From NCBI RefSeq assembly GCF_011044975.1, contig NZ_JAAKZV010000003.1:57676-121675 (forward strand): a stretch of DNA of 64,000 nt. The letters are read 5' to 3'. Position numbers and translations under genes: made by a program. Below the pieces are notes generated by a model. That model was not told the origin of the DNA. It did not search any database and saw only the letters and a program-made list of their open reading frames with translations. The stretch is from Streptomyces coryli (lineage in GTDB: Bacteria > Actinomycetota > Actinomycetes > Streptomycetales > Streptomycetaceae). Shown piece after piece: positions 2,643 to 23,959 of this stretch. Every line of letters starts with the position of its first letter. The stretch's first letter is position 1.

Positions 2643-2708
2643 CGTGGACTTCCTCTCACGGGGGGTGGTGGTATCCCGCGATGGTGCTGCGCCCGCGCCG
2701 GGTCCACC

Positions 2709-2725
2709 TCATCCGTCGTGGGTGA
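2709..2725. promoter_or_regulatory. 17-bp inverted repeat, island operator candidate (copy 1)
   Basis: TCATCCG-TCG-TGGGTGA, a 7-3-7 inverted repeat, 67 bp upstream of the DUF6069-like start. It overlaps the last codons of the BrkB-like gene, so this copy could partly reflect coding constraint. Confidence 0.5.
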
Positions 2726-3674
2726 TATCGAAGGCGACGCTGACGCGCTGGCCGGGCAGTCGTTCCTGTTCCCGGGCCAGCAGGGTGAGCGCCTTCTCGT
2801 CGGCGGGGGTGGGTTCGTCGTGCCAGAGGCTGCGCGGACAGAGCCGGAAGGCCCGTACGGCCGATATCTCGCCGCTGAAGACCAGTGCCTGGCTGACGAT
2901 GTACAGCAACGCGAAGATCCCGACGACGGTCGCGAAGCTGCCGTAAACGGGCCCGGACCGGGCGATCAGCAAGGGCAGCAGCGAGGCGCTCACCTCCAGC
3001 GTGGCGGTCATCACGAGGGTGGCCGCCAGCGCCCCGTCCCAGATCTGGCGGACCGGGCGCGGCCTCGCGGTCAGGAGCTTGTGCGCCAGGACCAGGACGA
3101 TAAAGATCACGGTGAAGGTGCCGACGGCGCTGCCCAGCCGCTGCTTCCACGCCGGATGCAGCAACTCGCTGGACAGCGCCGCGAGTCCGGCCGCGATGAA
3201 GGCGCCGAGGAGCGTCACGAGCTGGGTGAGCAGCACCCGGCCGTACCGGCTCGGCAGGGCCGGGCGGTCGCGATACGGCACGGACCAGATCCGGTTGAGC
3301 GCGTTGGACCCGGCCAATACGCCACCGGTGCCGGACCACAGCAGGCCGAGGCCGCCGACGAGCAAGGGGATGCCGCTCGGCGGGAGCTGGTGGAATGCCT
3401 GCTCCACGTCCGTTCGCAGCGAATGCGGTACAAGCTCGGTGACCAGGTCCTCGCGCAGGGCCGGATGCGCTCTGAGCACCTCGGTGAGGATGCCGACGGC
3501 GAACAGCAGCAGGGGGAAGAGGCTGAGGAAGCCGTAATACGTGAGGAGCGCCGCGAGTTTGCCCCCGTTGTCGTCGGAGTACTTCCGCAGCACCGCGTAC
3601 GGAAAGCCGAGCGCCCGGTGGCGCTGCTGCACCCGGTCGACGCGGTGCCAGGTTCGGTCCAGGCGGTCAGGCAC
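2709..3674 (-). CDS. YihY/BrkB-family inner membrane protein
   Basis: About 321 residues from a GTG at 3672-3674 that overlaps the TGA of the upstream gene by 8 bases; a longer reading from 3731 would overlap that gene much further. Six hydrophobic segments, the motif LAALLTYYGFLSLFPLLL early and QALVFSGEISAVRA late are characteristic of the YihY/BrkB family (Pfam Virul_fac_BrkB). The family name comes from Bordetella serum resistance, but most members, including this one, have no proven role; the old RNase BN label is not supported. The charged C-terminal tail is cytoplasmic by the positive-inside rule. Confidence 0.88.
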   Translation of the reverse strand: MPDRLDRTWHRVDRVQQRHRALGFPYAVLRKYSDDNGGKLAALLTYYGFLSLFPLLLFAVGILTEVLRAHPALREDLVTELVPHSLRTDVEQAFHQLPPSGIPLLVGGLGLLWSGTGGVLAGSNALNRIWSVPYRDRPALPSRYGRVLLTQLVTLLGAFIAAGLAALSSELLHPAWKQRLGSAVGTFTVIFIVLVLAHKLLTARPRPVRQIWDGALAATLVMTATLEVSASLLPLLIARSGPVYGSFATVVGIFALLYIVSQALVFSGEISAVRAFRLCPRSLWHDEPTPADEKALTLLAREQERLPGQRVSVAFDITHDG

Positions 3675-3945
3675 GCCGTGTGCGCTGCCGCGCACCGGCT
3701 CCCCAGTGGCCGACGTCGAGCAGCAGGGCAATGGCCACCCAGGCCCATTCCCAGTCGGTCAGGCCGAGGCCCGACTGATGGAGGAGCACGTACACCAGGG
3801 TCCCCAAGGGGAAGAACAAGAAACCGAGCACTGGCCAGGCCCAGCTGCTGAAGGCGTCGTCGACCGCGTTCGGCCGGGCCATCCAGAAGATGAGCAGGGC
3901 GAGCCTCGGAAACAGTGCGGCGAAGAGCACGAACACACAGCCCAT
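3667..3945 (-). CDS. Small membrane protein, unknown family
   Basis: A 92-residue protein with a hydrophobic N-terminal helix (5-22) and two more helices near 35-55 and 65-80, linked by the loop ARPNAVDDAFSSW. A strong ribosome binding site (CCGGAGGAATCC) precedes the ATG. It overlaps the BrkB-like gene by 8 bases, so the two are co-translated. Proteins of this type are common in actinomycetes but I know no function; a phospholipase-D N-terminal-like (PLDc_N) fold is possible and not demonstrated. Confidence 0.7.
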   Translation of the reverse strand: MGCVFVLFAALFPRLALLIFWMARPNAVDDAFSSWAWPVLGFLFFPLGTLVYVLLHQSGLGLTDWEWAWVAIALLLDVGHWGAGARQRTRRA

Positions 3946-3967
3946 CGTGGATTCCTCCGGTCGCGCT

Positions 3968-5023
3968 TCAGGGTCGTTGAGGCGGGCTGTCGTGGCTGCT
4001 CGCCTGCCGGATCAGCCGTCGGATGTCCAGGACGATCGCGGTCAGCGGCGCGGCCATCATGACCCCGGCGACGCCGGCGAACACGCCGGCCGCGACCGTC
4101 GCGAGCAGCACCACGAGCGGGTGCATGCGGAGTGCGGCGCCGAGGGCGAATGGCTGGATCATGTTCTGCAGGGCCCCGTTGGCCAGCAGCACGATCAGCA
4201 GCATCCAGATCGCCGTGGTGGTCCCGCCGGAGCCGAGCGCGAGGAGGACGGCGAAGGCACCGGACACGAGCGCCCCGATGTACGGGACGTAGGCCAGGAT
4301 GAAGGTCAGCACGGCGATCGCCAGGACGGACTCCACCTGGAGGATGAGCGCCCCCACGGCGGTCAGGACGGCGTTCACCAGGCCGATCAGGGTCATCCCT
4401 GCGAAGTAGCGGCGGACGAGCGCCGCCGAGCGGGTGACGGCCTGGTCGGCGAGCGGCGGCCGCAGCGGTATCACCTGGACGACCGTCTTCCGTACCGCTC
4501 CCGCGTCCTTGAGCAGGAAGAACAACATGTACAGGCCCAGCGTGCAGCCGAGGACGAGCTGGAGCGTGGCGGCCGCGCCGTCGGCCAGCCCGCTGAGCAT
4601 CGCCGAGAGCACGGTGGGCGCGGCCTTCTCGATGGCTTGGTGGACGTCCGTGGCCTGCTGCTCGCCGATGCCCAGATCGCCCGCGGTCTCGGCCAGGTTG
4701 GTGCCGGCCTCGTCCAGCATGGCGCCGATGTCGTCGGTCTGGTCGACCAGCCCGGCCACGAACACGATGGCGGAGAAGAGGAGGATGCCGATCACCAGCA
4801 GGCAGCCCAGCAGCGCGCCTGCCGCCCTGGGGACGCGCCGGGCCGCGAGCGCGTCCACGAGCGGCAGCAGCACGGTGGCGAGGGCGGCGGCGATGACCAA
4901 CGGGAGCAGCAGCGGCCGGAGCACGGTCAGGATGAAGAGCACGAGGCCGCTCGCGGCCACCAGCCCGGTGAACATCCAGGCCGCGGTGCCCGCGGTGTTC
5001 AGACGGCCGGGTGCTCCACGCAT
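3968..5023 (-). CDS. AI-2E family transporter
   Basis: A 351-residue membrane protein with about eight hydrophobic segments: two N-terminal helices (10-60), a third near 60-85, a long polar insertion (about 90-150), then a cluster of helices. The block FILAYVPYIGALVSGAFAVLLAL and the C-terminal LLATVAAGVFAGVAGVMMAAPLTA are diagnostic of the AI-2E transporter family (PF01594), which includes TqsA and YdiK; substrates vary and AI-2 export should not be assumed. The ATG at 5023 keeps the gene clear of the next one and places the first helix near the N-terminus. An imperfect copy of the 17-bp island repeat lies 37 bp upstream. Confidence 0.87.
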   Translation of the reverse strand: MRGAPGRLNTAGTAAWMFTGLVAASGLVLFILTVLRPLLLPLVIAAALATVLLPLVDALAARRVPRAAGALLGCLLVIGILLFSAIVFVAGLVDQTDDIGAMLDEAGTNLAETAGDLGIGEQQATDVHQAIEKAAPTVLSAMLSGLADGAAATLQLVLGCTLGLYMLFFLLKDAGAVRKTVVQVIPLRPPLADQAVTRSAALVRRYFAGMTLIGLVNAVLTAVGALILQVESVLAIAVLTFILAYVPYIGALVSGAFAVLLALGSGGTTTAIWMLLIVLLANGALQNMIQPFALGAALRMHPLVVLLATVAAGVFAGVAGVMMAAPLTAIVLDIRRLIRQASSHDSPPQRP

Positions 5024-5059
5024 GCCCGCCAGGATCCGTGGCCGCCGGTGCTCCCGGCA

Positions 5060-5076
5060 TCCTCCCTGACGGGTGA
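5060..5076. promoter_or_regulatory. Imperfect 17-bp inverted repeat, island operator candidate (copy 2)
   Basis: TCCTCCC-TGA-CGGGTGA, 37-53 bp before the AI-2E-type gene. The right arm matches the consensus exactly, the left arm only partly. Confidence 0.4.
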
Positions 5077-5090
5077 TAGCGGAGGGCCGG

Positions 5091-5642
5091 TCACTCCTCG
5101 GCGGCGCCGTCCGCCCGCCGGCGCAGGCCGCGCTTGACGGCATCGAGCACTATCTGGACGACCAGCCCGAGCACGACGAGGTTGCCCAGCATCTGCACCA
5201 TGGTCAGGATGCGTGCCGGATCCGAGCGCGGAACGATGTCGCCGAAGCCGACGGTGGCGAACACGGTGATCGTGAAGTACAGCGCGTCCGTCCGGGACAT
5301 GCGCTCGGAGAACGCGCTCGGATCGCTGTCACCCATCAGGAAATAGGCCGCGGCGAACAGCACCAGGAACGCGGGGACAGCCAGCGCGAGCGTCTCGATG
5401 GCGCGCAGCCGCGGATACGGGGACCGGCTGATCGCGCGCGTCTGCCACGCGATGATCCCGGCGAGCAGCAGCAGTCCACCGCCGAGCATGAGCGCGGTGC
5501 CGGCGGTGAACCGATCGGCCGACGGTGCCGCGAAGTAGAGGCCGAGGATGCAGGTGACGGTCAGCGCCGGGCGCAGTACCGCGCGCCGGAGCAGCCGGCG
5601 CCGGGATGCTCGCGGCAGGTCCTCGTACCGCGCCTCCGTCAT
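5091..5642 (-). CDS. Two-helix potassium channel family protein
   Basis: A 183-residue protein: a basic N-terminus, hydrophobic helices near 28-45, 49-67 and 82-105, a pore loop with the selectivity filter TVGFGD, and a final inner helix rich in V/L ending in a basic tail. The filter sequence is that of K+-selective channels (Ion_trans_2). There is no RCK/TrkA-N regulatory domain, so gating is not explained by this gene alone. Its ATG overlaps the TGA of the upstream LPG-synthase-TM gene (ATGA), so they are coupled. The pairing suggests linked control of membrane lipid and membrane potential, which is inference. Confidence 0.9.
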   Translation of the reverse strand: MTEARYEDLPRASRRRLLRRAVLRPALTVTCILGLYFAAPSADRFTAGTALMLGGGLLLLAGIIAWQTRAISRSPYPRLRAIETLALAVPAFLVLFAAAYFLMGDSDPSAFSERMSRTDALYFTITVFATVGFGDIVPRSDPARILTMVQMLGNLVVLGLVVQIVLDAVKRGLRRRADGAAEE

Positions 5643-6727
5643 GCCGCACCGCCGCTCTCCACCGACTTGGTGCGCCGCGCGTTCGCCGTGCGGCCGAGGT
5701 GCCGGGCCAGGATGGGCCAGCACACCAGGCCGATGAGGATCGGGCCGAGGTAGGAGAACAGCCGGAAGACGAACACTCCGGCGACGATTTCGTTCTCGGC
5801 GGCGCCCTGCGAGGCGTACAGCAGGGCCGAGATGTACAGCGTTTCCGTCACGCCGATGCCGCCCGGAGTTATCTGGACAATAGTGGCAAGATGGACGATA
5901 GCGTACACCGCGAAGATCTCGATGGGCATGAGGAGGCCGCGCTCCGCGCTGACCGAGCGCAGCGCCACCAGCAGGATCAGGAATACGGTGAGCTCCTTGG
6001 CCACCACCACCGCGGTGAGGCGGCCCCAGTGGCGGCGGACCACGCTGAGCGCGTCGGTCCTGAGCCGGACGACTCCCGTGCCCACGTCCACGGACCCGGG
6101 CCGCTTCACGACCTCGAGCCCCCATTTCACCGCCCGGTTGGCGATGGCCCCGGCCCGGTACGCGGTGTCCTCGCGGCGCATCACGAAGGTGATCAGGCCG
6201 AGTCCGAGGAGGGTGCCGACCAGGCCGATGAGGGTCAGCCAGAGCACCCGCGACGGGATCGAGTCCTGGAAGGCGAGCAGAGTGATCGCGATGCTGGGCA
6301 GCAGCATCAGAACGGCGCTGTTCCACAGGCTGTTCACCAGCATGGGCCGGCTGGTGTCGGCGGGGCTCAGGCCGTAGCGCCGGTACGCCTGGCGGCGCAT
6401 GGCCATGCCGGACGGGCCCGGAATGGTGTGGGAGACGAGGGACGCGGTCGCCTGGACCACGTAAGCGCGGCGCAGGCTCAGCGGGCCGATCAGCACGGCC
6501 GCCGCCATGGCCTTCATCATCTCCATCGCCAGGGTCAGGGCGATGAGCGCCGCGAAGGCGACCCAGGTGAGCTTCGTGATGGCTGCCCAGATGTCCGCGT
6601 AGCTGCCGAAGTTCGGGATCGCCACACCGAACAGCAGCCCCACGAGCACCAGGGTGAGCAAGCCCTGCGCGATCGCCCACCATCGTGACCTCTGCGGCGC
6701 TTCGCCCGTCAGCACTTCTGTCGCCAT
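5639..6727 (-). CDS. Lysylphosphatidylglycerol synthase-type transmembrane (UPF0104) protein
   Basis: A 362-residue polytopic protein with about eight hydrophobic helices. The segments SLVSHTIPGPSGMAMRRQAYRRYG and VHLATIVQITPGGIGVTE, with their conserved PG-G and TPGGIG motifs, identify the flippase-like transmembrane domain of LPG synthase and AglD-like proteins (PF03706). There is no aminoacyl-transferase domain, so it is a stand-alone transmembrane member, possibly lipid flipping. The ATG at 6725-6727 was chosen because GAGGGT stands just before it; a GTG at 6754 is also in frame. A copy of the island repeat is 29 bp upstream of this ATG. Confidence 0.85.
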   Translation of the reverse strand: MATEVLTGEAPQRSRWWAIAQGLLTLVLVGLLFGVAIPNFGSYADIWAAITKLTWVAFAALIALTLAMEMMKAMAAAVLIGPLSLRRAYVVQATASLVSHTIPGPSGMAMRRQAYRRYGLSPADTSRPMLVNSLWNSAVLMLLPSIAITLLAFQDSIPSRVLWLTLIGLVGTLLGLGLITFVMRREDTAYRAGAIANRAVKWGLEVVKRPGSVDVGTGVVRLRTDALSVVRRHWGRLTAVVVAKELTVFLILLVALRSVSAERGLLMPIEIFAVYAIVHLATIVQITPGGIGVTETLYISALLYASQGAAENEIVAGVFVFRLFSYLGPILIGLVCWPILARHLGRTANARRTKSVESGGAA

Positions 6728-6755
6728 GGCCACCCTCATGACCGTTGACCGCACC

Positions 6756-6772
6756 TCACCCCCGCCGGGTGA
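6756..6772. promoter_or_regulatory. 17-bp inverted repeat, island operator candidate (copy 3)
   Basis: TCACCCC-CGC-CGGGTGA, 7-3-7, 29-45 bp upstream of the LPG-synthase-TM gene. It lies between that gene and the small Arg-rich frame. Confidence 0.6.
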
Positions 6773-6802
6773 GGCGCGGTACGGGCCGGCAGTGGATCGC
6801 CG

Positions 6803-6889
6803 TCAGGAACGGCGGCGGGAGACGCGGCGCGAGGTGCGGCGCGCGGTGCGACGTGCGGTGCGGCGGGCTACTCTGCGGCTTCCGAACAT
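6803..6889 (-). CDS. Possible 28-residue arginine-rich small protein
   Basis: A short frame beginning MFGSRRVARRTARR and continuing as alternating RR-x-S/T/A units; 13 of 28 residues are Arg and there is no acidic residue. GGAGG stands 6 bases before the ATG, a good ribosome binding site, and the start is 23 bp downstream of the DUF6325 stop, so it could be the second gene of that operon. The start resembles the MF-RRR opening of SHOCT-type small proteins such as the one at 9941, so it may be a truncated relative. It could bind nucleic acid or anionic lipid by charge alone. Translation is not proven. Confidence 0.4.
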   Translation of the reverse strand: MFGSRRVARRTARRTARRTSRRVSRRRS

Positions 6890-6912
6890 GTCCTGCCTCC
6901 AATGTGATCCGG

Positions 6913-7449
6913 TTACTCGGCGGCCTTCTCCAACCGGTGCAGTTCGGCGGCCTCCTCGGCGGTGTGCATGCCGATGGCCACGAGGTCGAGCGGGCTGATG
7001 AAGGCGTCGTTGAGCCGGTAGCCGCGGGCGCGCATGACCGCGTCGCGCAGCGGCACCGCCCAGTGGTGCTCGATCAGGATCAGGGCGGCGGCCGAGTCGT
7101 TCGGGATCTCTTCGATGACATCCCACGCGTCGTCGTCGCTGAACACCTCCAGCCCCTCCTCGGCTATCGCCGCGCCGATGGCCGCGCCCTCTTCGGCTCC
7201 CTGCTCGCCCTCGAAGCCGAGGCCGATCAGTGCGCCGATCTTGCTGCCGTACTCGACCGCCTCCTTCTCGGTCAGGTTGCTGAGGTGCGCGACCTCCAGT
7301 TCTCCGCTCTTGTCCTTGTGGACGGCGAGCGCGTCGATCACGCGGACGGTGTCGCTCTGTCGCAGGCGCTCCAGCTCGGCGATGATCTCGCCGTGGAACT
7401 CGGGGTGGTTGAACCCCAGGACGATGAGCTGAACGGGTCCGATCGTCAT
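6913..7449 (-). CDS. DUF6325 family protein (paralogue A)
   Basis: A 178-residue soluble acidic protein beginning MTIGPVQLIVLGF. It has an alpha/beta-type first third, a Gly/Ala-Glu-rich middle (GLGFEGEQGAEEGAAIGAAI) and the segment IEHHWAVPLRDAV. It is a clear paralogue of the protein at 10220 (shared GPVQ-LV, GEI-ELERLR, EHxWAxPxRD and PxDLVAxG motifs). DUF6325 has no assigned function; relatives of DUF1269 are often stress-induced, which fits the island but is inference. The ATG at 7449 is preceded by GAAGGGGA; an upstream in-frame ATG at 7482 has no such site. A 17-bp island repeat lies about 60 bp upstream. Confidence 0.8.
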   Translation of the reverse strand: MTIGPVQLIVLGFNHPEFHGEIIAELERLRQSDTVRVIDALAVHKDKSGELEVAHLSNLTEKEAVEYGSKIGALIGLGFEGEQGAEEGAAIGAAIAEEGLEVFSDDDAWDVIEEIPNDSAAALILIEHHWAVPLRDAVMRARGYRLNDAFISPLDLVAIGMHTAEEAAELHRLEKAAE

Positions 7450-7509
7450 GGCAGTCCCCTTCTCTGTTTCCATCCCGGGCACCGTGCCAGCTGCCGGCGC
7501 GGCACCGAA

Positions 7510-7526
7510 TCACCTGTCAGGGGTGA
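7510..7526. promoter_or_regulatory. 17-bp inverted repeat, island operator candidate (copy 4)
   Basis: TCACCTG-TCA-GGGGTGA, 7-3-7, 61-77 bp upstream of DUF6325 paralogue A and 10 bp beyond the stop of the SulP gene. Confidence 0.65.
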
Positions 7527-7536
7527 CGTAGCGCGG

Positions 7537-9267
7537 TCAGCCATCCCGGTGGCTGACCGCCCACGCCTCTGCGGCGGCGTAGGCGGCCCATGTCGACTCG
7601 CCCACCTTGTCCGTCGCCTCGAAGGTGCGGATCGGCCCGGCGACGTCGAGGCGTCCGGTACGGCGCAGCAGCTCGGCCATGTCGCCGTCCAGGCCGCTCA
7701 GGTACAGCCGCCCGCCCACGGCGGCCAGGGTTCTGGCGTAGTCGGCCGTGACGTGCCCGAAGGTGGCGCCCAGCGAAGTGCGGCCCCGCAGCCGCAGGAT
7801 CACGACGGGCGACTCGGCGCCGGCCGGATCGGGCAGCCGGGCCCTGAGGGTGCGGGCGCCGGCGTAGAGCAGGCTGCCGTAGACGTCCAGTACGGTCACG
7901 GGGTGGCCGGTCAGCTCGTGCGGCGCCGGGCGCTCGGTCCACGTCCGCTCGCCGTCCGGCACCAGCTCCACCACCTTCAGATCCATGGCCTCCTTGTTCA
8001 CCTGCATCAGCAGCGACAGGGCCACGCCGATGCCGACCGCGGCCGCGACCGGCAGCACCAGCGTCGCGGTGAACGTGACGACGATGCCGATCCGCGCGGT
8101 CATCCCCGTACGCATGATCGTGACGATCTGCCCGGTCCGCAGCGCGCTCGCCCCGGCGAAGATCAGCACGGCCCCGAGCGTCGGCATCGCGACCTTGCCC
8201 ACCAGTCCGGAGAAGAGGACGAGGATCAGCAGCATCCAGACCCCGGCCAGCATCGGCCCCCACCGGGTACGGCCGCCGCTTGCGACCATGAGCGAGGTCT
8301 GACCGACCGAACCGCCCACCGGCAGACCGCGGAACAGCCCGGCGGCCAGATTGCCCACGCCCTGCGCGACGAAGTCCCGGTTGGGGTCCGGCGGGGTCCC
8401 GTCGGTGTTCGGGGCGGCCTCTGCCACCCCGGCGCCCTGGACGAGCACGATCACCATGATCGCGAGGGCGCCCGTCACCAGCGAGAAGGACAGCTGGTCG
8501 AACTCGGGCAGATGCGGCAGCGGAAAGCCGTCCGGGATCTCGCCCATGTCCGCCACCTGCTCGACGCTTCCGGCGCTGAAGAGGATCACTCCGGCCGTGG
8601 GCACGGCCAGCGCCAGCGGCGTCCCCGCGACCGGCCAGCGGGTGCGCGCCAGACCGACGATGATGGCCAGCGCAGCCAGCCCGGTGAGCAGCGAAGGCAC
8701 GTCGATGCGCGCCGGGTGGGTCAGTACGTCGAGCGCCTTGGCCAGCGCGAACGGGCCCTCCGCTGACGCACCGGTGAGGTCGGGGATCTGACCGCAGATG
8801 ATGTTGACGGCGATCCCGGTCAGGAAGCCGATCATCACCGAGTGCGACACGAAGCGCGTGTACCGGCCGAGACGCAGCAGCCCGGCGATGATCATCGCCG
8901 CGCCGGCGAGCAGGGTGAGGAGGAAGAGCGCCCCCGGGCGGTCCGCCGGGTTCATGCCCTGCAGCGCCGAGCCCGCCGCCAGCGCCGCCGCGCTCGTCGT
9001 GTTGACGACCATGAGCTTGGTCCGCGTCGACAGGCCGCCGGCGAACGTGCCCGCGAAGTTGGCGTACAGCCCGTACACCGGATTTACGCCCGCGAGCACC
9101 GACGCGGCCATCCCGTCGGGTACGGCGCCGACCGCGACCGGCAGACTTCCGATCGCGTCGGCGCGCAGGTCGCGTGGCCGGGGGCGCAGGGAGCGCAGTC
9201 GGCGGCCGGCCGCACCTGTCGCCCGGTGGAGAACCTTTTTGCCGCCCGTCGCGCCCCGAGTGTTCAT
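7537..9267 (-). CDS. SulP family sulfate/anion permease with STAS domain
   Basis: A 576-residue protein: an Arg-rich cytoplasmic N-terminus (1-35), about 10-12 membrane segments between 40 and 430, then a STAS domain (about 450-565). The segment VGAVPDGMAASVLAGVNPVYGLYANF and the motif LAAGLFRGLPVGGSVGQTS are typical of the SLC26/SulP transmembrane core. Members carry sulfate, bicarbonate, chloride or other anions; sulfate is plausible because an arylsulfatase gene sits about 5 kb away under the same predicted operator, but this is inference. It is divergent from the DUF1269 operon and shares a 166-bp intergenic region holding two copies of the island repeat. Confidence 0.9.
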   Translation of the reverse strand: MNTRGATGGKKVLHRATGAAGRRLRSLRPRPRDLRADAIGSLPVAVGAVPDGMAASVLAGVNPVYGLYANFAGTFAGGLSTRTKLMVVNTTSAAALAAGSALQGMNPADRPGALFLLTLLAGAAMIIAGLLRLGRYTRFVSHSVMIGFLTGIAVNIICGQIPDLTGASAEGPFALAKALDVLTHPARIDVPSLLTGLAALAIIVGLARTRWPVAGTPLALAVPTAGVILFSAGSVEQVADMGEIPDGFPLPHLPEFDQLSFSLVTGALAIMVIVLVQGAGVAEAAPNTDGTPPDPNRDFVAQGVGNLAAGLFRGLPVGGSVGQTSLMVASGGRTRWGPMLAGVWMLLILVLFSGLVGKVAMPTLGAVLIFAGASALRTGQIVTIMRTGMTARIGIVVTFTATLVLPVAAAVGIGVALSLLMQVNKEAMDLKVVELVPDGERTWTERPAPHELTGHPVTVLDVYGSLLYAGARTLRARLPDPAGAESPVVILRLRGRTSLGATFGHVTADYARTLAAVGGRLYLSGLDGDMAELLRRTGRLDVAGPIRTFEATDKVGESTWAAYAAAEAWAVSHRDG

Positions 9268-9303
9268 CGCCGAACACGGTCCCGGTGTCCATGGTCCGGC
9301 ACA

Positions 9304-9320
9304 TCACCCGGCAGGTGTGA
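9304..9320. promoter_or_regulatory. 17-bp inverted repeat, island operator candidate (copy 5)
   Basis: TCACCCG-GCA-GGTGTGA, 7-3-7 with one changed position in the right arm, 37-53 bp upstream of the SulP gene. Confidence 0.55.
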
Positions 9321-9349
9321 CCCGCACCAGCCGTACCGGCCCGCTCAAT

Positions 9350-9366
9350 TCATCCGTTCCGGGTGA
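9350..9366. promoter_or_regulatory. 17-bp inverted repeat, island operator candidate (copy 6)
   Basis: TCATCCG-TTC-CGGGTGA, 7-3-7, 68-84 bp upstream of the DUF1269 gene, in the same divergent region as copy 5. Confidence 0.65.
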
Positions 9367-9433
9367 TGCCGACCGAGGGCAGTCCGCACTTGCATGAGTT
9401 CGCCAACCCGAAACGCAAAGAGAGGCGTTGGAC

Positions 9434-9928
9434 ATGGCGAATCTGATAGCGATCGGCTACCCGGACGAGACCACCGCGGCCGAGGCCGAGCGGGAAGTCC
9501 ACCGGCTGACGGAGGACCTCGTCATCCAGCCCGACGCGGTCGCCGTGATCGTGCGGGACAAGGGCGGCAAGTTCCGGGTCACGACCAACCACCACGCGGT
9601 GGCCGGCGGCGCGACGTGGGGGATGTTCTGGGGGCTGCTGTTCGGCGTGCTGTTCTTCATCCCGTTCTTCGGGATGGCGCTGGGCGCCGGGATGGGTGCC
9701 CTGATGGGCAAGATCGAGAAGTCGGGCATCGACAAGACCTTCCAGAAGCAGGTCCGCAACCTGCTGCAGCCGGGCACGTCCGCCCTGTTCCTCGTGGTGC
9801 ACAAGGTCACGCCGGACAAGGCAGTCGCCGCGCTCAGCAAGTACGGCGGCACCGTGCTCAAGTCCTCGCTCTCCGAGGACACCGAGCGCCAGCTGCAGGA
9901 GGCCCTGCACGGTCAGCCCACGACCTAG
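9434..9928 (+). CDS. DUF1269 domain-containing membrane protein
   Basis: A 164-residue protein. An alpha/beta domain (1-60, opening MANLIAIGYPDE) is followed by a Gly-rich hydrophobic hairpin (about 64-95, with MFWGLLFGVLFFIPFFGMALGAGMGALMG) and a second alpha/beta segment, the layout of DUF1269 (PF06897). Family members are membrane-associated and of unknown function. A TTG 6 bases upstream is in frame, but the ATG at 9434 has the better spacing from AGAGG. First gene of an apparent five-gene operon reaching 11890, with gaps of 9-34 bp. Confidence 0.87.
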   Translation: MANLIAIGYPDETTAAEAEREVHRLTEDLVIQPDAVAVIVRDKGGKFRVTTNHHAVAGGATWGMFWGLLFGVLFFIPFFGMALGAGMGALMGKIEKSGIDKTFQKQVRNLLQPGTSALFLVVHKVTPDKAVAALSKYGGTVLKSSLSEDTERQLQEALHGQPTT

Positions 9929-9940
9929 AAGGGACGGGTC

Positions 9941-10210
9941 ATGGGACTGATGTTCCGGCGCCGGCGGCCGCTGGCGCGTGCCGCGATGCTCGCGGGCGCG
10001 AGCGCGGTCGCGTACAAGGCCGGTCAGCGGCAGCAGGACCAGGCGGCCGGCGGAGCGTACGAGCAGCAGGCGGCACCGCCGGCTGCCGCGCCGGCTCCGG
10101 CCGGCGGCGGCACCGTCGCCGACCTGGAGCGCCTCAAGGCGCTGCTCGACCAGGGCGTGCTCACCCAGGAAGAGTTCGAAGCCGCCAAGCAGAAGATCCT
10201 CGAGGGGTAG
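9941..10210 (+). CDS. SHOCT domain-containing small protein
   Basis: An 89-residue protein with a basic N-terminus (MFRRRRPLARA), a short hydrophobic stretch (about 15-27), a Pro/Ala-rich linker and a C-terminal SHOCT motif: DLERLKALLDQGVLTQEEFE followed by AAKQKIL. SHOCT is a short C-terminal oligomerisation motif found in many unrelated proteins. AAGGGA precedes the ATG. It sits 12 bp after DUF1269 and 9 bp before DUF6325 paralogue B, in line with a single transcript and perhaps a complex. Confidence 0.9.
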   Translation: MGLMFRRRRPLARAAMLAGASAVAYKAGQRQQDQAAGGAYEQQAAPPAAAPAPAGGGTVADLERLKALLDQGVLTQEEFEAAKQKILEG

Positions 10211-10219
10211 GGACGCGTC

Positions 10220-10726
10220 ATGGAATTCGGCCCCGTGCAGATTCTCGTGGTCGCCTTCGAAGATCCCAAGTTCACCGGCGAGATCCTTCCCGAACTCCGC
10301 CGGCTGCGCGAGCACGACATCGTCCGCCTGATCGACCTGCTGGTGGTGTCGAAGGCCGATGACGGAAGCCTGTCCACCGTGGAGATGAGCGATCTGTCCC
10401 AGGAGGAATCCCGCGAACTCGGTTCGGTCGTCGGCGCGCTGATCGGCTTCGCCGCCGACGGGGACGAGGGTGTCGAAGCGGGCCCGGAGGCCCAGCGGGA
10501 AGGGGTGTTCACCGACGCGGAGCGGTGGGCCGTGGCCGACACCATCCCGGTCGGATCGGCCGCGGCGGTCGCACTGCTCGAGCACCGCTGGGCCATACCG
10601 ATGCGCGACATGGTGCACCGGGCGGGAGGGGCCAGTCTCGCCGACGGCTGGGTGCACCCGGCGGATCTCGTGGCGGTGGGCGGGGACCGGACAGATTCGG
10701 TTCCCGCACCCCCGGATCGCGCGTAA
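10220..10726 (+). CDS. DUF6325 family protein (paralogue B)
   Basis: A 168-residue soluble protein opening MEFGPVQILVVAF, paralogous to the protein encoded at 6913-7449: the same GPVQ-LVV start, GEILPELRRLREHD, EHRWAIPMRDMV and PADLVAVG. The middle region is shorter and less Gly-rich than in paralogue A. Two copies under separate copies of the same predicted operator suggest they work in parallel or form a heteromer. Function unknown. Confidence 0.78.
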   Translation: MEFGPVQILVVAFEDPKFTGEILPELRRLREHDIVRLIDLLVVSKADDGSLSTVEMSDLSQEESRELGSVVGALIGFAADGDEGVEAGPEAQREGVFTDAERWAVADTIPVGSAAAVALLEHRWAIPMRDMVHRAGGASLADGWVHPADLVAVGGDRTDSVPAPPDRA

Positions 10727-10758
10727 GGACCGACAGACACACCGATGGGAGGTATCTC

Positions 10759-11184
10759 ATGGCACAAAAGACGTACGCGGCAAGAGAGGTAAGCGGCTGG
10801 ACCGTAGGGCTCGTGCTCTTCGCCGGCATCATGATGATCACGGTCGGGCTCTTCCAGGCGATCCAGGGCTTCGCGGCGATCCTCGAGAACGAGTTCTACG
10901 TGAACGTGCGCAACTACGCGTTCGAAGTCGATGTCACGGCCTGGGGATGGATACACCTCATCCTGGGCCTCGTCCTCGGCCTGGCCGGCTGGGGAGTCAT
11001 CACGGGAGCGCTGTGGGGCCGCATGGTCGGCATTGCCCTGGCGGTGCTCAGCGCCATCGTGAACTTCTTCTTCATCCCCTACTACCCGCTCTGGTCGATG
11101 CTGATCATCGCGCTCGACGTGTTCGTGATCTGGGCGCTGTGCGTGTACGGACGGAGCGAGGCGGAGCAGTCCGGCACCGCATAG
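10759..11184 (+). CDS. DUF7144-like four-helix membrane protein
   Basis: A 141-residue protein with four hydrophobic segments (about 14-38, 60-78, 82-104, 108-130) and the WGWIHLILGLVLGLAGWGV block seen in a family of actinobacterial membrane proteins annotated as DUF7144. The ATG follows a perfect GGGAGG at 10747-10752 by 6 bases; longer readings overlapping DUF6325 lack this. Fourth gene of the DUF1269 operon. Role unknown. Confidence 0.7.
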   Translation: MAQKTYAAREVSGWTVGLVLFAGIMMITVGLFQAIQGFAAILENEFYVNVRNYAFEVDVTAWGWIHLILGLVLGLAGWGVITGALWGRMVGIALAVLSAIVNFFFIPYYPLWSMLIIALDVFVIWALCVYGRSEAEQSGTA

Positions 11185-11218
11185 GTGCCACCGGGCCGTT
11201 ACGAGAGGGACGAGGCTG

Positions 11219-11890
11219 ATGGGTAACGCGATGGGAAGCATGCTGCCCATGGCGCTCGGGGTGGCGCTGAGCCCGATGCCGGTCATCGCCATCATCCTCA
11301 TGCTCGGCACACCCCGTGCCCGCTCGAACGGCCCGTCGTTCACGCTGGGCTGGATCTCCGGGCTGACACTGGTGGGCGCGCTGGTGCTGCTGCTCACCGG
11401 CGGGCCGGCGTCCTCTGACCAGGGTGAGCAGGCCACCTGGGTGACCGTACTGGCCCTGCTCATCGGCGTATTCCTGCTGCTTCTCGCCGCGCGTGCGTGG
11501 CGTGGGCGCCCGGCCGAGGGGCAGCAGGCGCGGATGCCGAAGTGGATGAGCGCGATCGATCAGTTCAGCCCGGTGAAGTCCTTCGGGATGGGCGCGCTGC
11601 TGTCCGGGGTCAACCCGAAGAACCTCGCGCTGAACCTCGGCGCGATGACCGCGATCGCCGAGACCGGCATCCCGGGGGGCCAACAGGCGGTGACCCTGGG
11701 TGTCTTCGTGCTCCTCGGGACGCTGACCATTCTCACCCCGCTCGGCATCTACTATCTCGCCGGAGCCGGCGCCCAGGAGATCCTCGGCACTCTCAAGGAA
11801 TGGCTGGCCGCCCACAATGCCGCCGTCATGTCGGTGCTGCTGCTGGTGCTGGGCGCCAAGCTCATCGGCGACGCGATTTCGGAGTTCTGA
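11219..11890 (+). CDS. GAP/Sap-family membrane protein (LysE-like superfamily)
   Basis: A 223-residue protein with six hydrophobic helices. The opening MLPMALGVALSPMPVIAIILML and the central GMGALLSGVNPKNLALNLGA are typical of the GAP family (PF11139), small exporters related to LysE; mycobacterial Gap is needed for glycopeptidolipid export. The substrate here is unknown. The ATG lies 34 bp after the DUF7144-like stop behind GAGAGGGACGAGG. It is the last gene of the operon; the LuxR regulator follows after 125 bp. Confidence 0.85.
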   Translation: MGNAMGSMLPMALGVALSPMPVIAIILMLGTPRARSNGPSFTLGWISGLTLVGALVLLLTGGPASSDQGEQATWVTVLALLIGVFLLLLAARAWRGRPAEGQQARMPKWMSAIDQFSPVKSFGMGALLSGVNPKNLALNLGAMTAIAETGIPGGQQAVTLGVFVLLGTLTILTPLGIYYLAGAGAQEILGTLKEWLAAHNAAVMSVLLLVLGAKLIGDAISEF

Positions 11891-11929
11891 TCACCGGTCG
11901 GCACCGACCGGCCGGATACGCACAGGAGT

Positions 11930-11941
11930 TCACCCGGGTGA
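11930..11941. promoter_or_regulatory. Perfect 12-bp palindrome upstream of the LuxR regulator gene
   Basis: TCACCCGGGTGA uses the same half-site as the island's 17-bp repeats but without the 3-bp spacer. A further GGGGTGA half-site is at 11977-11983, 32 bp before the regulator's ATG. This could be an autoregulatory variant; the different spacing is a caution. Confidence 0.4.
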
Positions 11942-12015
11942 GATGACAACTGACACGGGTTCACTTCCCGGATGCCGGGGTGAGACTCGAACTGGGCTCA
12001 CCCTGGGGGGTATTG

Positions 12016-14367
12016 ATGTCGGATCCAGGCGTGGTGGTGACACGCCCATGGGTGGAAATCGCGCCCGCCTTCCCCACCCTCGTCTCCAAGATCACCGTGC
12101 CGCCCAAGCCGACATGGCTGGTCAGCAGGCCGCAGCTGGTGAGCCGGCTGACCCGCGGGGTGCACGGACCGCTGACCGTCATCGTCGGCCCGGTGGGTGC
12201 GGGCAAGTCCGCGCTGGCCCTGGAGTGGGCGCACACCGGCACGGCACAGGGACCGCTGGCCTGGGTGAGCTGCTACGGCAGCGAGGAGCCGCCCGGCATC
12301 TTCTGGACCTGCGTGGTGGAGGCGCTGTGCCGGGCGGGCGTGGATACGGCCTGGCTCGGCACGCTGTCGCCGGACAGCGCCGACTTCGTCCCCGGATTCG
12401 TCGCGCGGCTCACGGCCGACCTGGCAGCCCGGGATGAACCGGTGACGCTCGTCCTGGACGACTTCCAGCCCGCGGCCCGGTCCCCGACCGCCGAGGGCAT
12501 GGCGTATCTGCTGCAGCACGCGGGTCCTGCGCTGCGCCTGATGGTCACGTCCCGGCGGGATCCGCCGCTGCCGCTGCACCGCCTGCGGCTGGCCGGCGAA
12601 CTCACCGAGATCCGCACCGAGGACCTGGCCTTCAGCGAGAGCGAGACCCAGGCGCTGCTGGCGCAGCACGATGTCTCCCTGCCGCGCACCGCGATCGGCG
12701 CCCTCACCCGCCGTACCGAAGGATGGGCCGCCGGCCTGCGGCTCGCCGCCATGTCGATGGTGGAACACCCCTATCCGGAACGGTTCGTGGCGCAGTTCGC
12801 CGGCGACGACGAGGCCGTCGTCAGCTATCTGGTCGAGGAGGTCCTGGACGCCCAGAAGTCCGACATGCGCCAGCTGCTCCTGACCACCAGCCTCCCGGAA
12901 CAGGTCAACGCCGAGCTCGCCGCGGAGCTCGCCGGAGAGGCGACCGCCGGCCACTTCGCCGCCCTGGTCGAGAACAACTCCTTCCTCCAGTCCCTGGGAC
13001 ACGGCTGGTACCGCTGCCACCAGATGTTCCGCGACGTCCTGCGGCTCCGGCTACGGCATGAAGCACCGGACCAGGTCATCGAACTGCACCGGCGGGCGGC
13101 CACCTGGTTCGGCGGCCGGGACCACATGGTCGAGGCCGTGTCGCATGCCGCGGCCGCCGGGGACTGGCAGTACATGAGCTCCCTGGTCATCCACCGACTC
13201 GCGGTCGGCCACGTCCTGGGGCTGACCGGTGGCCAGTTGACCGAGGTCTTCAAGCACATTCCCACGGACGTCCTGGCCGCGGCGCCGGACGGTGCGGAGC
13301 CCGAGCTGATGCTCGTCGCCTCCGCCAGCGCCCTGGCACGCGGTGAGCACCGGCTCAGCGCCGAGGCCTTGACGCAGGCCGGGGAACTGCTGGCGGACGA
13401 CGACAGCTCGCCCGGCCGGACAGCGGAGGCGAAGCTGACGCACGCGGTGATCCGCCTGCAGAGCGAGCGGAACCGCGGCACCCCCGATGCACTGCGCGCG
13501 GCCGCGGAGGCCAAGCGGCTCTTCCGGCTGATCCCGTCCGGCGTGCTGGCCGACCGCCCCGAACTGCGGGCCCTCGTCCTGTCGGCGCACGGCGACGGGG
13601 AACTGCGCAGTGGCCACCTGAACGCCGCGCAGACCACCCTGGGCAAGGCGCTCAGAGCGGCCATCGCCGCGGGGAACAGCGAGCTGCGCCACGACTGCCT
13701 GATCGGTCTGGCGCTCATCGAGGCGCTGCGCGGCCGGTTCCGGGAAGCGTCCGAACTCGTGGCCCAGGCGGAACTGCTCTCTGTGGTGCCCCGGGCGGCC
13801 ACCGCCGGCTCATCGGCTCCGGCCCACGTGCTCCGCGGCTGGGTGCATCTCGCCCGCGGCCGGCCGACGGAAGCCCGGGAGGAGCTCTCCGTCGCGGGCG
13901 CGGCACTGCGCACCGCCCCTGACCCGTTCGTCAGCGGGCTGCGCTCACTCGTGGACTTCCTCACCGGCATCGCCGAGGGCCGCCCGCTTCCCGACCCGCA
14001 GGCGGTCGCGCAGGCCGGCGGTGACCTGCCGGCCCCCTGGCTCGTGGAGCTGTTCGAGAGCGAGGTGGCGCGCGCCCGGGCCACCCCCGTACGGCACGCT
14101 CCGGCACCGACGCCGGCCGGTGCCGCGGGCAGGGCGGCCGCGAGCCCCGAGCGCCACCCGGGGCCGCGGGTGACCGAGCGGCTCAGCAAGCGGGAGCTCG
14201 AGGTGCTGGTCAATCTCTCCCAGATGATGACCACCGAGGAAATCGCCGCTCAGCTGTATCTGTCGGCGAACACGGTGAAGACCCATCTCAAGAGCGTCTA
14301 CCGCAAGTTGGGGGTGTCCCAGCGGACCGCGGCGGTACGCCGTGCCCGCGAACTCAAGCTCCTCTGA
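12016..14367 (+). CDS. MalT/LAL-type LuxR family transcriptional regulator
   Basis: A 783-residue protein. The P-loop GPVGAGKS lies near residues 58-65, followed by an AAA/NACHT-like region (VTLVLDDF as Walker B near 150), a TPR-like helical middle (about 350-680) and a C-terminal LuxR HTH (about 715-780: LSKRELEVLVNLSQMMTTEE, then KTHLKSVYRKLGVSQRTAAV). This is the STAND-class LAL/MalT layout, in which a small ligand and ATP usually trigger oligomerisation. The ATG at 12016 follows a G-run (12005-12010) by 5 bases and is preferred over an in-frame GTG at 11980. As the only regulator in the island it is the natural candidate for the 17-bp operators, which is inference. Confidence 0.88.
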   Translation: MSDPGVVVTRPWVEIAPAFPTLVSKITVPPKPTWLVSRPQLVSRLTRGVHGPLTVIVGPVGAGKSALALEWAHTGTAQGPLAWVSCYGSEEPPGIFWTCVVEALCRAGVDTAWLGTLSPDSADFVPGFVARLTADLAARDEPVTLVLDDFQPAARSPTAEGMAYLLQHAGPALRLMVTSRRDPPLPLHRLRLAGELTEIRTEDLAFSESETQALLAQHDVSLPRTAIGALTRRTEGWAAGLRLAAMSMVEHPYPERFVAQFAGDDEAVVSYLVEEVLDAQKSDMRQLLLTTSLPEQVNAELAAELAGEATAGHFAALVENNSFLQSLGHGWYRCHQMFRDVLRLRLRHEAPDQVIELHRRAATWFGGRDHMVEAVSHAAAAGDWQYMSSLVIHRLAVGHVLGLTGGQLTEVFKHIPTDVLAAAPDGAEPELMLVASASALARGEHRLSAEALTQAGELLADDDSSPGRTAEAKLTHAVIRLQSERNRGTPDALRAAAEAKRLFRLIPSGVLADRPELRALVLSAHGDGELRSGHLNAAQTTLGKALRAAIAAGNSELRHDCLIGLALIEALRGRFREASELVAQAELLSVVPRAATAGSSAPAHVLRGWVHLARGRPTEAREELSVAGAALRTAPDPFVSGLRSLVDFLTGIAEGRPLPDPQAVAQAGGDLPAPWLVELFESEVARARATPVRHAPAPTPAGAAGRAAASPERHPGPRVTERLSKRELEVLVNLSQMMTTEEIAAQLYLSANTVKTHLKSVYRKLGVSQRTAAVRRARELKLL

Positions 14368-14380
14368 GCTGGACGTCGCG

Positions 14381-14397
14381 TCACCTGGTACGGGTGA
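14381..14397. promoter_or_regulatory. 17-bp inverted repeat, island operator candidate (copy 7)
   Basis: TCACCTG-GTA-CGGGTGA, 7-3-7, directly after the LuxR gene and 56-72 bp upstream of the arylsulfatase ATG. Confidence 0.65.
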
Positions 14398-14452
14398 TGT
14401 GCGCGTCCCGGCAGCTCCCGAAACTGAGGGACGACCTGGGAGGAGAGCTGCC

Positions 14453-16810
14453 ATGACCAAGCCATTCCGAGGTGTCGTGAACCTCGATATCCGTGACTCG
14501 GTCCCGGACTGGGCCCCGTACGAACAGCCGAAGGCGCCGCCCGGCTCGCCGAACATCCTGTACATCGTGCTCGACGACGTCGGCTTCGGCGCCATGAGCT
14601 GCTACGGCGGCCCGATCGACACCCCGAACATCGACAGGATCGCGGCGAACGGCCTGCGCTACGGCCAGTGGCACACGACCGCGCTGTGCTCACCGACCCG
14701 CTCCTGCCTGCTCACCGGCCGCAACCACACCACCAATGGCATGGCCTGCATCAGCGAGTGCGCCGTCGGCTTCCCCGGCGCCAACGGGCACATCCCGCCG
14801 GAGTGCGCCACGCTCGGTGAGATCCTGGTCGAGCGCGGCTACAGCACCGCCCATGTCGGCAAGTGGCACCTATGTGCCGAGGACGAGATGAACCTCGCCT
14901 CGACCAAGCACAACTGGCCGGTCGCCCGCGGCTTCGAGCGCTTCTACGGCTTCCTCGGGGCCGAGACCAGCCAGTGGTATCCGGACCTGGTGCACGACAA
15001 CCACCCCGTCGAGCAGCCGGCCATGCCCGAGGACGGCTACCACTTCAGCGTCGACATCACCGACAAGGCGCTGGAATTCATCGGCGACGTGAAGGCGATC
15101 GCACCGGAGCGGCCCGTCTTCATGTATTACGCGCCGGGCTGCGCGCACGCGCCGCATCAGGCGCCGCGCGAATGGATCGACCGCTACCGGGGCCGTTTCG
15201 ACGAGGGCTACGAGGTCATGCGCGAGCAGACCATGGCCCGGCAGAAGGACATCGGGCTGATCCCCAAGAACACCGAACTGCCGTCGCTCAACCCGATCGG
15301 AACCCCCGAGTCCCGTACCGGGCCGGGAGGAGAGCAGTTCCCGCCGCTGGACTACACCCGCCCCTGGGACACCCTCTCCGAGGACGAGCAGCGGCTCTTC
15401 GCCCGTATGGCCGAGGTGTACGCGGGATTCCTCTCCCACTGCGACGACCAGATCGGCCGCCTCCTCGACTACCTCGAGGCGACCGAGCAGCTGGACAACA
15501 CCATCATCGTGGTCGTCTCCGACAACGGAGCCAGCGGCGAGGGCGGTCCTGACGGCTCGGTCAACGAAAACAAGATCGCGAACAGCGTCCCGGACGACCT
15601 TGCCGAGAACCTCGCGATGATCGACGACCTGGGCAGCACCAAGACGTACAACCACTATCCGAACGGCTGGGCGATGGCCTTCAACGCCCCGTTCAAGATG
15701 TGGAAGCGCTACTCCTTCAACGGCGGCACCTGCGACCCCTGCGTCATCTCCTGGCCGGCCGGCATCGCGGCGCGCGGCGAGACCAGGGATCAGTATCACC
15801 ACGCCGTCGACGTGGTGCCGACCCTGCTCGACTGCATCGGCATCGAACTCCCCGACACGGTGAAGGGTCACACCCAGCACCCGATCGAGGGCGTGAGCAT
15901 GCGCTACAGCTTCGACTCGGAGAACATCCCGACCGCGAAGCACACCCAGTTCTATTCGATGCTCGGCTCCCGGGGCATCTGGCACGACGGCTGGAAGGCC
16001 GTCACCACCCACCCCACGCTCAGCGGATGGGGTCACTTCAACGAGGACAACTGGGAGCTCTACAACACCCAGGAGGACCGCGCCGAGATGCATGACCTGG
16101 CCGCCGAGGAGCCGGGCAGGCTCGCCGAACTCGTCGGCCTGTGGTTCCACGAGGCAGGCGCCCATCAGGCGCTGCCGCTCGACGACCGCTCCGGCGTCGA
16201 GATCATCACGACGCCGCGTCCTCAGCTCGCCCCGCCGCGCAACCGCTACGTGTACCGCCCCGGCGGCGCCGAGGTGCCCGAGTCCGTCGCGGTGAACGTC
16301 CGCAACCGCTCGTACTCGATCGGAGCGCTGGTCGACCTGCCAGGCCCGGGTGCGGCAGGGGTGCTGTTCTCGCACGGCGGCCGGTTCGGCGGGCACGCCC
16401 TGTACATCAAGGAGAACCGGCTGCATTACGTCTACAACTTCCTCGGCAGCGAGGAGCAGCGGATCAGCGCGACCGTGGATCTGCCGACCGGTGAGAACCT
16501 GATCCTGGCGGCGTCCTTCGACCGGGACGACGGGGACCCGTCCGGCATCGCCCAGGGCGCCCTCAGCCTCTATCACGGCGACCGCAAGGTCGGCGAAGGC
16601 CGCATCAGGACGCAGCCCGGCAAGTTCAGCATCGCGGGCGAGGGCCTCAACGTCGGCCGGGACGGCGCGGATGCCGTCACCGACGACTACCCCGGCACCC
16701 GTCCCTGGACGTTCACCGGCGGCACCCTGCACCGGGTGGCGGTCGACGTCAGCGGCGAACCGTTCGTCGACCTGGAGCGCGAAGCCGCCGCCATGCTCTC
16801 CCGCGAGTAG
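14453..16810 (+). CDS. Type I arylsulfatase (formylglycine-dependent sulfatase)
   Basis: A 785-residue cytosolic-looking protein without a signal peptide. Metal-binding DD at 41-42 (YIVLDDVGFGA), the sulfatase signature CSPTR with the Cys to be converted to formylglycine at 79, GKWHL near 146-150 and the late VVSDNGAS are all present. About 200 residues after the catalytic domain form a beta-rich extension that looks LamG-like. It hydrolyses sulfate esters; the natural substrate is unknown. No formylglycine-generating enzyme gene is in the window. GGGAGGAG precedes the ATG. The antiporter gene starts 10 bp after its stop, so they are co-transcribed. Confidence 0.92.
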   Translation: MTKPFRGVVNLDIRDSVPDWAPYEQPKAPPGSPNILYIVLDDVGFGAMSCYGGPIDTPNIDRIAANGLRYGQWHTTALCSPTRSCLLTGRNHTTNGMACISECAVGFPGANGHIPPECATLGEILVERGYSTAHVGKWHLCAEDEMNLASTKHNWPVARGFERFYGFLGAETSQWYPDLVHDNHPVEQPAMPEDGYHFSVDITDKALEFIGDVKAIAPERPVFMYYAPGCAHAPHQAPREWIDRYRGRFDEGYEVMREQTMARQKDIGLIPKNTELPSLNPIGTPESRTGPGGEQFPPLDYTRPWDTLSEDEQRLFARMAEVYAGFLSHCDDQIGRLLDYLEATEQLDNTIIVVVSDNGASGEGGPDGSVNENKIANSVPDDLAENLAMIDDLGSTKTYNHYPNGWAMAFNAPFKMWKRYSFNGGTCDPCVISWPAGIAARGETRDQYHHAVDVVPTLLDCIGIELPDTVKGHTQHPIEGVSMRYSFDSENIPTAKHTQFYSMLGSRGIWHDGWKAVTTHPTLSGWGHFNEDNWELYNTQEDRAEMHDLAAEEPGRLAELVGLWFHEAGAHQALPLDDRSGVEIITTPRPQLAPPRNRYVYRPGGAEVPESVAVNVRNRSYSIGALVDLPGPGAAGVLFSHGGRFGGHALYIKENRLHYVYNFLGSEEQRISATVDLPTGENLILAASFDRDDGDPSGIAQGALSLYHGDRKVGEGRIRTQPGKFSIAGEGLNVGRDGADAVTDDYPGTRPWTFTGGTLHRVAVDVSGEPFVDLEREAAAMLSRE

Positions 16811-23672: not shown

Positions 23673-23930
23673 ATGATGAAAGCCTCCGAGCAAGCCCGCG
23701 AAGAAATCCGCCGGCGCATAGCCGACGAACTCGAAGCCGCCGACGCCGCCGAAGCCCACGCCGCCCGCGCCACCTTGCGCGCCGCCGTCCTGAAGGCCGA
23801 CCCCACCGCGGACCCCACCACCGTCGAAGCCGCCACAGAAGAGGCCCAACGCGCCACCCTCATCGCCGCAATGCGCACCCGCGACCTCCACCGCGCGATC
23901 GAGGCAGCCGTCCACGACCTGGGACGCTGA
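23673..23930 (+). CDS. Small Ala/Glu-rich helical protein, unknown
   Basis: An 85-residue protein, almost entirely predicted helix (MKASEQAREEIRRRIADELE, then alternating A/E/R). Two adjacent ATGs start it, preceded by AGAGGAGG. There is no membrane segment. It runs convergent with the CobW-like gene, 29 bp apart. Composition gives no function; a coiled coil is possible. Confidence 0.5.
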   Translation: MMKASEQAREEIRRRIADELEAADAAEAHAARATLRAAVLKADPTADPTTVEAATEEAQRATLIAAMRTRDLHRAIEAAVHDLGR

Positions 23931-23959
23931 TCCGGCGCGGGTGAGGCCGGAGGGGTCGG

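Follow-up and report, generated by a model that had tools for sequence, protein, structure and literature searches.

The described regulators closest to the system considered here are BldM, MalT and SCO6993. In Streptomyces venezuelae, BldM is described as activating its targets; its Group I site is TCACcCgnncGgGTGA (TCACCCG-N2-CGGGTGA), and together with WhiI it uses TGnnCCGnnCGGGTGA (PMC4125116). MalT of Escherichia coli is described as a positive regulator with a box quoted as GGA[TG]GA, and SCO6993 of Streptomyces coelicolor, a large ATP-binding regulator of the LuxR family (LAL), is reported to act negatively on antibiotic production, its authors having been unable to predict a consensus site for it (PMC9628970). 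We examined a 64,000-nucleotide stretch of the Streptomyces coryli genome (contig NZ_JAAKZV010000003.1, positions 57,676 to 121,675 of the forward strand; hereafter the window), in which copies of a 17-bp inverted repeat, refined here to TCACCCG-N3-CGGGTGA, lie beside a gene for a MalT-like LuxR protein. From the sequence evidence set out below, we consider it quite likely that this protein activates an envelope and ion regulon through the repeat.

An earlier note on this DNA had not recognised the site from any known streptomycete regulon. That stands for the three-base spacer, which is not recognised from a published streptomycete regulon, and falls for the half-site, which is already known from BldM (PMC4125116). 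No description of the 7-3-7 site or its regulon was found in the open-licence literature, subscription journals lying mostly outside that search; one match, in PMC2687793, was to an unrelated probe sequence in the part of that paper concerned.

Seven copies of a 17-bp inverted repeat

The earlier note had listed seven 7-3-7 repeats, and all seven were found where it had placed them, with zero to two mismatches to its pattern on the better strand; the seven-copy observation is confirmed. Across the whole window that loose pattern gave 46 matches at three mismatches against 55 expected, showing no enrichment, so the loose pattern alone would mislead. When the island at 2-15 kb was instead compared with the symmetric consensus TCACCCGNNNCGGGTGA, three sites lay within one mismatch and six within two, where 100 dinucleotide shuffles yielded on average 0.00 and 0.13 (largest 2).

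A position weight matrix (PWM) was then built from 159 sites in 55 loci other than the window. Its six best matches in the 64 kb were, in order, the copies at 14381..14397 (plus strand, before the arylsulfatase gene), 7510..7526 (minus, before the DUF6325-like gene 6913-7449), 6756..6772 (minus, before the LPG_synthase_TM and ion channel genes), 9350..9366 (plus, before the DUF1269-SHOCT-DUF6325-DUF7144-Sap operon), 2709..2725 (minus, TCACCCACGACGGATGA towards the DUF6069 gene) and 9304..9320 (minus, before the SulP gene). Rank 7 went to a compact site at 11930 before the LuxR gene, and rank 8 to the weak copy at 5060..5076 (minus, before the AI-2E family gene). The copy at 2709 does overlap the stop of the BrkB-like gene, as had been described, and the distance from motif end to start codon across the window sites (28–67 bp by our own gene calls) is close to the 29–84 bp given before. 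Together, the shuffles and the PWM ranks rule out chance or base composition as the source of the motif.

An isolated intergenic match at 23928-23944 ranked ninth (PWM 12.6) and has no start codon within 500 bp. We also observed pairs of sites 35–67 bp apart, start to start, in 13 of the 23 loci L001-L023 (e.g. L002:13343-13415), as at 9304-9366 in the window, mostly ordered as TCACAC or TCACCT followed by TCATCC; their recurrence suggests a conserved two-way promoter.

Spacer and intergenic placement across related LuxR loci

Related loci were picked by LuxR similarity and not by the motif. A scan with the window LuxR protein gave 23 loci (L001-L023; 21 in Streptomyces and 2 in Actinomadura), 19 of them at 50–56% identity and four at 35–46%. 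Searching 101 genomes from a single genus added more loci of this type and others of a mostly longer LuxR type, at about 34–42% identity over the matched part and 58–73% in the helix-turn-helix (HTH; L072-L106); the second set, L071-L106, also counts L071, whose LuxR is of the window's type. Repeats of L017, L005, L019 and L010 (L067-L070) were excluded, and L124-L126, fetched for holding a site, belong to neither set. Seventeen other LuxR-HTH loci (L107-L123) were also scored; L107, L108 and L112 are included in that figure and stood outside the control set for the intergenic and spacer counts. A search of plasmids returned distant relatives, the best from Nonomuraea (45.8%).

In the first set 20 of 23 loci had a site within one mismatch, and in the second 33 of 36; of the 17 other LuxR-HTH loci just 1 did, the sister locus L108. 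The spacer proved strict: when spacers of 0–8 were scanned at up to two mismatches, a spacer of 3 gave 96 and 111 hits in the two LuxR sets and each other spacer 3–17. Likewise, TCACC-N7-GGTGA occurred 59 times in 23 loci, compared with 0–22 occurrences for each other inverted spacing between 0 and 25, where the top rival (N2, 22 occurrences) is the compact site discussed below. No direct spacing from 0 to 25 stood out as the inverted N7 did, and the direct-repeat arrangement of MalT was rejected.

Sites within two mismatches were mostly intergenic (80 of 98 in the window plus L001-L023, where 10.6% of bases are intergenic; 93 of 111 in L071-L106, where 14.1% are), which rules out a coding-sequence effect as the source of the motif. 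With genes called by our own codon-usage script, a start codon lay within 400 bp of 170 of the 173 intergenic sites, 161 of these at 20–119 bp. The earlier note had reasoned that random density inside genes, or orthologous upstream regions lacking the motif, would speak against a regulon; in the loci, to which these counts apply, the sites keep to intergenic DNA, and related islands carry the motif. Ten such islands were compared with the window and are not collinear with it, gene order and content both differing, yet several of the families that follow the motif in the window follow it there too.

A −10-like element at fixed distance

For promoter alignment, 164 of the 173 intergenic sites were kept; those dropped had no start at 15–149 bp, ran off an end, were repeats, or lay in the window beyond 18 kb. 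Setting aside 72 sites with starts on both sides left 92 one-target sites, and their alignment revealed one other clearly conserved feature, an A at offset 40 and a T at offset 44 from the motif start. The pattern AnnnT stood at offset 40 in 53 of the 92 and at offset 41 in a further 19 (together 72 of 92; leaving out the three sites of the window, 70 of 89, drawn from 44 loci), against a median of 1 over offsets and 9 sites at offset 40 in the opposite direction. The 72 two-sided sites behaved similarly, with 33 at offset 40 and 19 at offset 41 towards the nearer start versus 10 and 6 towards the other. We read the conserved AnnnT as a −10 element with the aligned consensus SACGCT; it is weak, without T at its first position, and no −35 consensus was seen beside the sites.

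Five of the seven window sites are in register with such an element: 2709 (CACCAT at 2681..2686, minus strand, offset 40, for the DUF6069 gene), 5060 (GATCCT at 5031..5036, minus, offset 41), 7510 (CACGGT at 7481..7486, minus, offset 41), 9304 (GACCGT at 9276..9281, minus, offset 40) and 14381 (GAAACT at 14420..14425, plus, offset 40). The null rate in the window's upstream regions was 0.042 (220 of 5286 positions), which gives five of seven a P of 2.4e-6. The copies at 2709 and 5060, which had been called the weakest and which rank fifth and eighth by PWM, both gain support from this register.

A fixed distance next to a −10 with no good −35, as found at 72 of the 92 sites with transcription starts inferred, is the layout of a class II activator. 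The same placement could serve repression, in which the LuxR protein would cover the −35 position and block RNA polymerase until a signal arrives: the site lies over the inferred −35 position in every in-register promoter, and negative regulation has been reported for one LAL protein, SCO6993 (PMC9628970). We regard repression as unlikely, however, since the lack of a −35 consensus and the weak −10 suit dependence on an activator, and MalT is described as a positive regulator in the same source (PMC9628970). The fixed distance would also fit a long promoter for an alternative sigma factor rather than an operator. Such a promoter is extremely improbable, given that the motif is a near-perfect palindrome by PWM and that the gap between it and the conserved A of the −10 is 23–24 bases, longer than usual sigma spacers.

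The LuxR protein as candidate binder

The gene at 12016..14367 (plus strand; start at 12016 or 12031) encodes a MalT-like LuxR regulator of the LAL family, with an ATPase N-terminus and a C-terminal GerE HTH. Both features that define the family, a LuxR HTH and an N-terminal ATP-binding domain, are present: the C-terminal GerE/LuxR HTH matches PF00196 (56.3 bits, 2.4e-15, residues 734-789 of 795), and the Walker A motif reads GPVGAGKS, the AAA_16 match of 32.2 bits falling just below the 32.6 cut-off. As a MalT equivalog it fails, scoring 239.5 bits with PRK04841 MalT, far under the NCBIfam cut-off of 537.

To relate the sites to this protein, we counted them in 80 of the 101 genomes, calling LuxR present at E <1e-30; G020, with differing HTHs, was thus counted positive. 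Promoters combining motif and −10 averaged 3.73 per genome with the LuxR (n = 33) versus 0.89 without (n = 47; P 2e-10). The motif alone gave 17.7 strand hits versus 12.1 (P 1.3e-5), and a reversed-pattern control, again motif alone, gave 5.8 versus 5.7.

The recognition helix pointed the same way. It reads NTVKTH(L/I)(K/R)xxYRKL in every one of the 59 HTHs read (24 and 35 in the two sets; L097 shows no HTH), and NTVNTH(V/I)RxIYAKL in the sister loci L107, L108 and L113. In these sister loci the inner base of XGGTGA is C in 8 of 12 half-sites (six sites; the rest G in 3 and T in 1, strand ignored), whereas of the 276 half-sites in the main loci 3 have C, 192 G and 81 A. This suggests that a changed helix goes with a changed half-site, and no more than suggests it, given that there are just three such loci and that their sites lack symmetry. 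With the sites clustered beside its relatives, their distribution among genomes, and this covariation of helix and half-site, the LuxR protein is the best candidate binder of the 7-3-7 sites, and the regulon proposed in the earlier note, with this protein as candidate regulator, gains support.

The variant 17-bp operators, often with inner base C (e.g. TCACCGGATTCCGGTGA), lie at L107:8370, 11149 and 13095, L108:4299 and 11313, and L113:8842. A separate element, TCACCACGC...GGGTGACGCCGCC ... GCGTCTAGCGT, keeps the same 17-bp frame and is nearly the same in several genomes, away from LuxR loci (G010:C491:10951, G016:C1:4091525, G058:C1:1201145, G072:C123:1804007 and G076:C1:8540297).

Two other binders were weighed against the LuxR protein. 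The sites might be targets of BldM, or of BldM with WhiI, which would make the island part of the sporulation regulon. A 203-aa protein that we take to be BldM is present at 100% in 3 of 3 genomes, and its helix, SEDTVKTHARRLFKKL, shares TVKTH with the window LuxR protein. The published Group I site, moreover, has the same half-site, and 7-2-7 sites of BldM type are slightly commoner in LuxR-positive genomes (42.1 versus 36.2 strand hits, P 0.048), a small difference that points the same way. Yet these 7-2-7 sites occur in 80 of 80 genomes irrespective of LuxR, unlike the composite promoter; a spacer of 2 accounts for no more than 6 and 7 hits in the LuxR loci of the two sets versus the 96 and 111 for a spacer of 3; and among twenty 7-2-7 sites taken from three genomes, of which L131 and L137 resemble each other, no fixed −10 was found. 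We consider control by BldM very unlikely. The second candidate is some other regulator, such as the product of a small LuxR-HTH gene that lies downstream in the opposite orientation, where a second HTH match stands in 20 of 23 loci (L001-L017, L019, L020, L022). The chance of this appears remote: no second HTH match was found in the window, L023 or L071, and there is one in L072-L106 (L095), though nearly all of these loci carry sites.

A compact site before the regulator gene

Upstream of the LuxR gene lies a compact 6-0-6 palindrome, TCACCCGGGTGA (11930..11941, plus strand), the seventh-ranking PWM match already mentioned and a probable autoregulatory site, followed at a fixed distance by the −10-like GAGACT (11982..11987, plus). 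The earlier note had pointed to this site, and it recurs upstream of LuxR in 19 of the 24 loci formed by the window and L001-L023, in 14 of the 19 at 78–109 bp from the called start; in L003 and L005 it is doubled. The offset from compact site to AnnnT is 52 or 53 in 18 of 19 distinct loci and 51 in L004. The site was not found in L071-L106, and a single copy in L112 lies away from the LuxR-HTH match there. We conclude that the compact site looks like autoregulation through a second arrangement of the half-site. The GGGGTGA half-site that the note had also placed before the LuxR gene overlaps the probable −10 and may not be a functional site; a role for it was rejected.

Target genes and proposed mechanism

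On the minus strand, the predicted targets and their neighbours are genes for a DUF6069 protein (2148..2642), a BrkB/YihY family protein (2709..3695), an AI-2E family transporter (3968..5023), an ion channel (5091..5642), an LPG_synthase_TM protein (5639..6727), a DUF6325-like protein (6913..7449) and a SulP/STAS transporter (7537..9267). The plus strand carries the predicted DUF1269, SHOCT, DUF6325-like, DUF7144 and Sap operon (9434..11890) and the arylsulfatase gene (14453..16810), with which a gene of the Na+/H+ exchanger family (16821..18134) is probably co-transcribed across a 10-bp gap. These names come from Pfam, except that the product of 6913-7449 has no Pfam hit at 0.001; the DUF6325 label given to it before thus lacks a Pfam match there, and the DUF6325 match of 10220-10726 is below the Pfam cut-off. 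Relatives of the 6913-7449 product stand behind sites in L006, L018 and L021.

Across all loci, with names taken from a Pfam scan of one representative per cluster, the operons behind sites most often encode DUF7144 (43 loci), a 65–98 aa protein of unknown function (36), PLDc_N-SHOCT (24), an unnamed ~470-aa protein that has hydrophobic stretches (23), the lipid kinase DAGK_cat (20), DUF2252 (17), a GH63-like enzyme (16), an alpha-amylase-like protein (16) and DUF308 (14). SulP, the ion channel, the arylsulfatase and the DUF6325-like protein stand behind sites in three or four loci each, the window included. The first gene of the window (1-888), cut by the window start, encodes a DUF2252 protein (266 bits); since relatives stand behind the motif in 17 loci, we predict one more site immediately beyond the window start.

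Besides membrane or envelope proteins, the window targets include a channel, transporters, an arylsulfatase and several proteins of unknown function. The regulon may therefore serve envelope or ion homeostasis, perhaps under stress, in answer to a small molecule that the ATPase part would sense. In the mechanism that we propose, the LuxR protein would bind TCACCCG-N3-CGGGTGA as a symmetric pair of HTH domains, with the site centre ~43 bp before the inferred transcription start and the inner half in place of a −35 box. The −10 (SACGCT) is weak and probably unable to fire alone, so that the bound protein would recruit RNA polymerase and switch on together at least seven promoters of genes for envelope, ion-transport and other membrane proteins, and the regulator would read its own promoter through compact TCACCCGGGTGA. 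The inducer of MalT is maltotriose, and inducer plus ATP sets its active form; by analogy, an inducer plus ATP may set the active form here.

Several observations weigh against this account. The window sites at 6756 and 9350 (2 of 7) have no −10 in register, and the spacing of the compact site differs by 5 bp from that of the operator, which one dimer geometry explains poorly. Among the counted genomes, 4 of the 33 with LuxR have fewer than two composite promoters and 10 of the 47 without it have at least two. Six loci of the two sets (L017, L019, L022, L087, L092 and L097) have no site within one mismatch, contig ends cutting L087 and L097, and the loci are related, so that the counts are not independent events. 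The TVKTH helix also occurs in the controls L109, L114 and L116-L118, which have no motif at one mismatch; TVKTH alone is therefore not predictive, and the wider helix must matter. Finally, the genes behind the sites vary considerably between loci, and DUF6069, BrkB, AI-2E and LPG_synthase_TM stand behind sites in the window only.

Comparison with known systems

SCO6993 is, like the window regulator, a large ATP-binding LuxR protein with inverted-repeat sites that binds its own promoter, and differs in that no envelope regulon appears in the sections of the SCO6993 report consulted here (PMC9628970). Set beside the consensus that could not be predicted for SCO6993 in that account, a family of LAL proteins gains a sharp predicted operator, a promoter layout and a target list, and the unnamed families DUF7144, DUF6069, DUF1269, DUF2252 and DUF6325 gain a shared regulatory context. 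MalT shares with the window regulator its large ATP-binding form and C-terminal LuxR HTH. Its box is one base from GGGTGA, the hexamer GGA[TG]GA itself being absent here because the third base is G, and the window sites form inverted pairs with one strict spacer.

Within the sister LAL loci L107, L108 and L113, the 17-bp TCACC-N7-GGTGA frame is again found, with at least one composite match with −10 near each LuxR gene; these loci differ in the inner base C of the half-site and in the helix described above. BldM offers the closest site. Its Group I half-site, TCACCCG/CGGGTGA, is the same as that of the window-type palindrome as captured by the 159-site PWM, but its spacer is 2 where the window-type sites have 3, and it is a 203-aa response regulator where the window regulator is a large ATPase. 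We put at about even the chance that these two unrelated proteins use the same half-site in the same cell with one spacer base (2 versus 3) alone separating their regulons, and that the altered helix of the sister proteins (K to N, YRKL to YAKL) gave rise, within the same 17-bp frame, to a third half-site code. The one-base difference from the BldM site makes a clear example of the way in which HTH proteins that share a half-site may avoid cross-talk.

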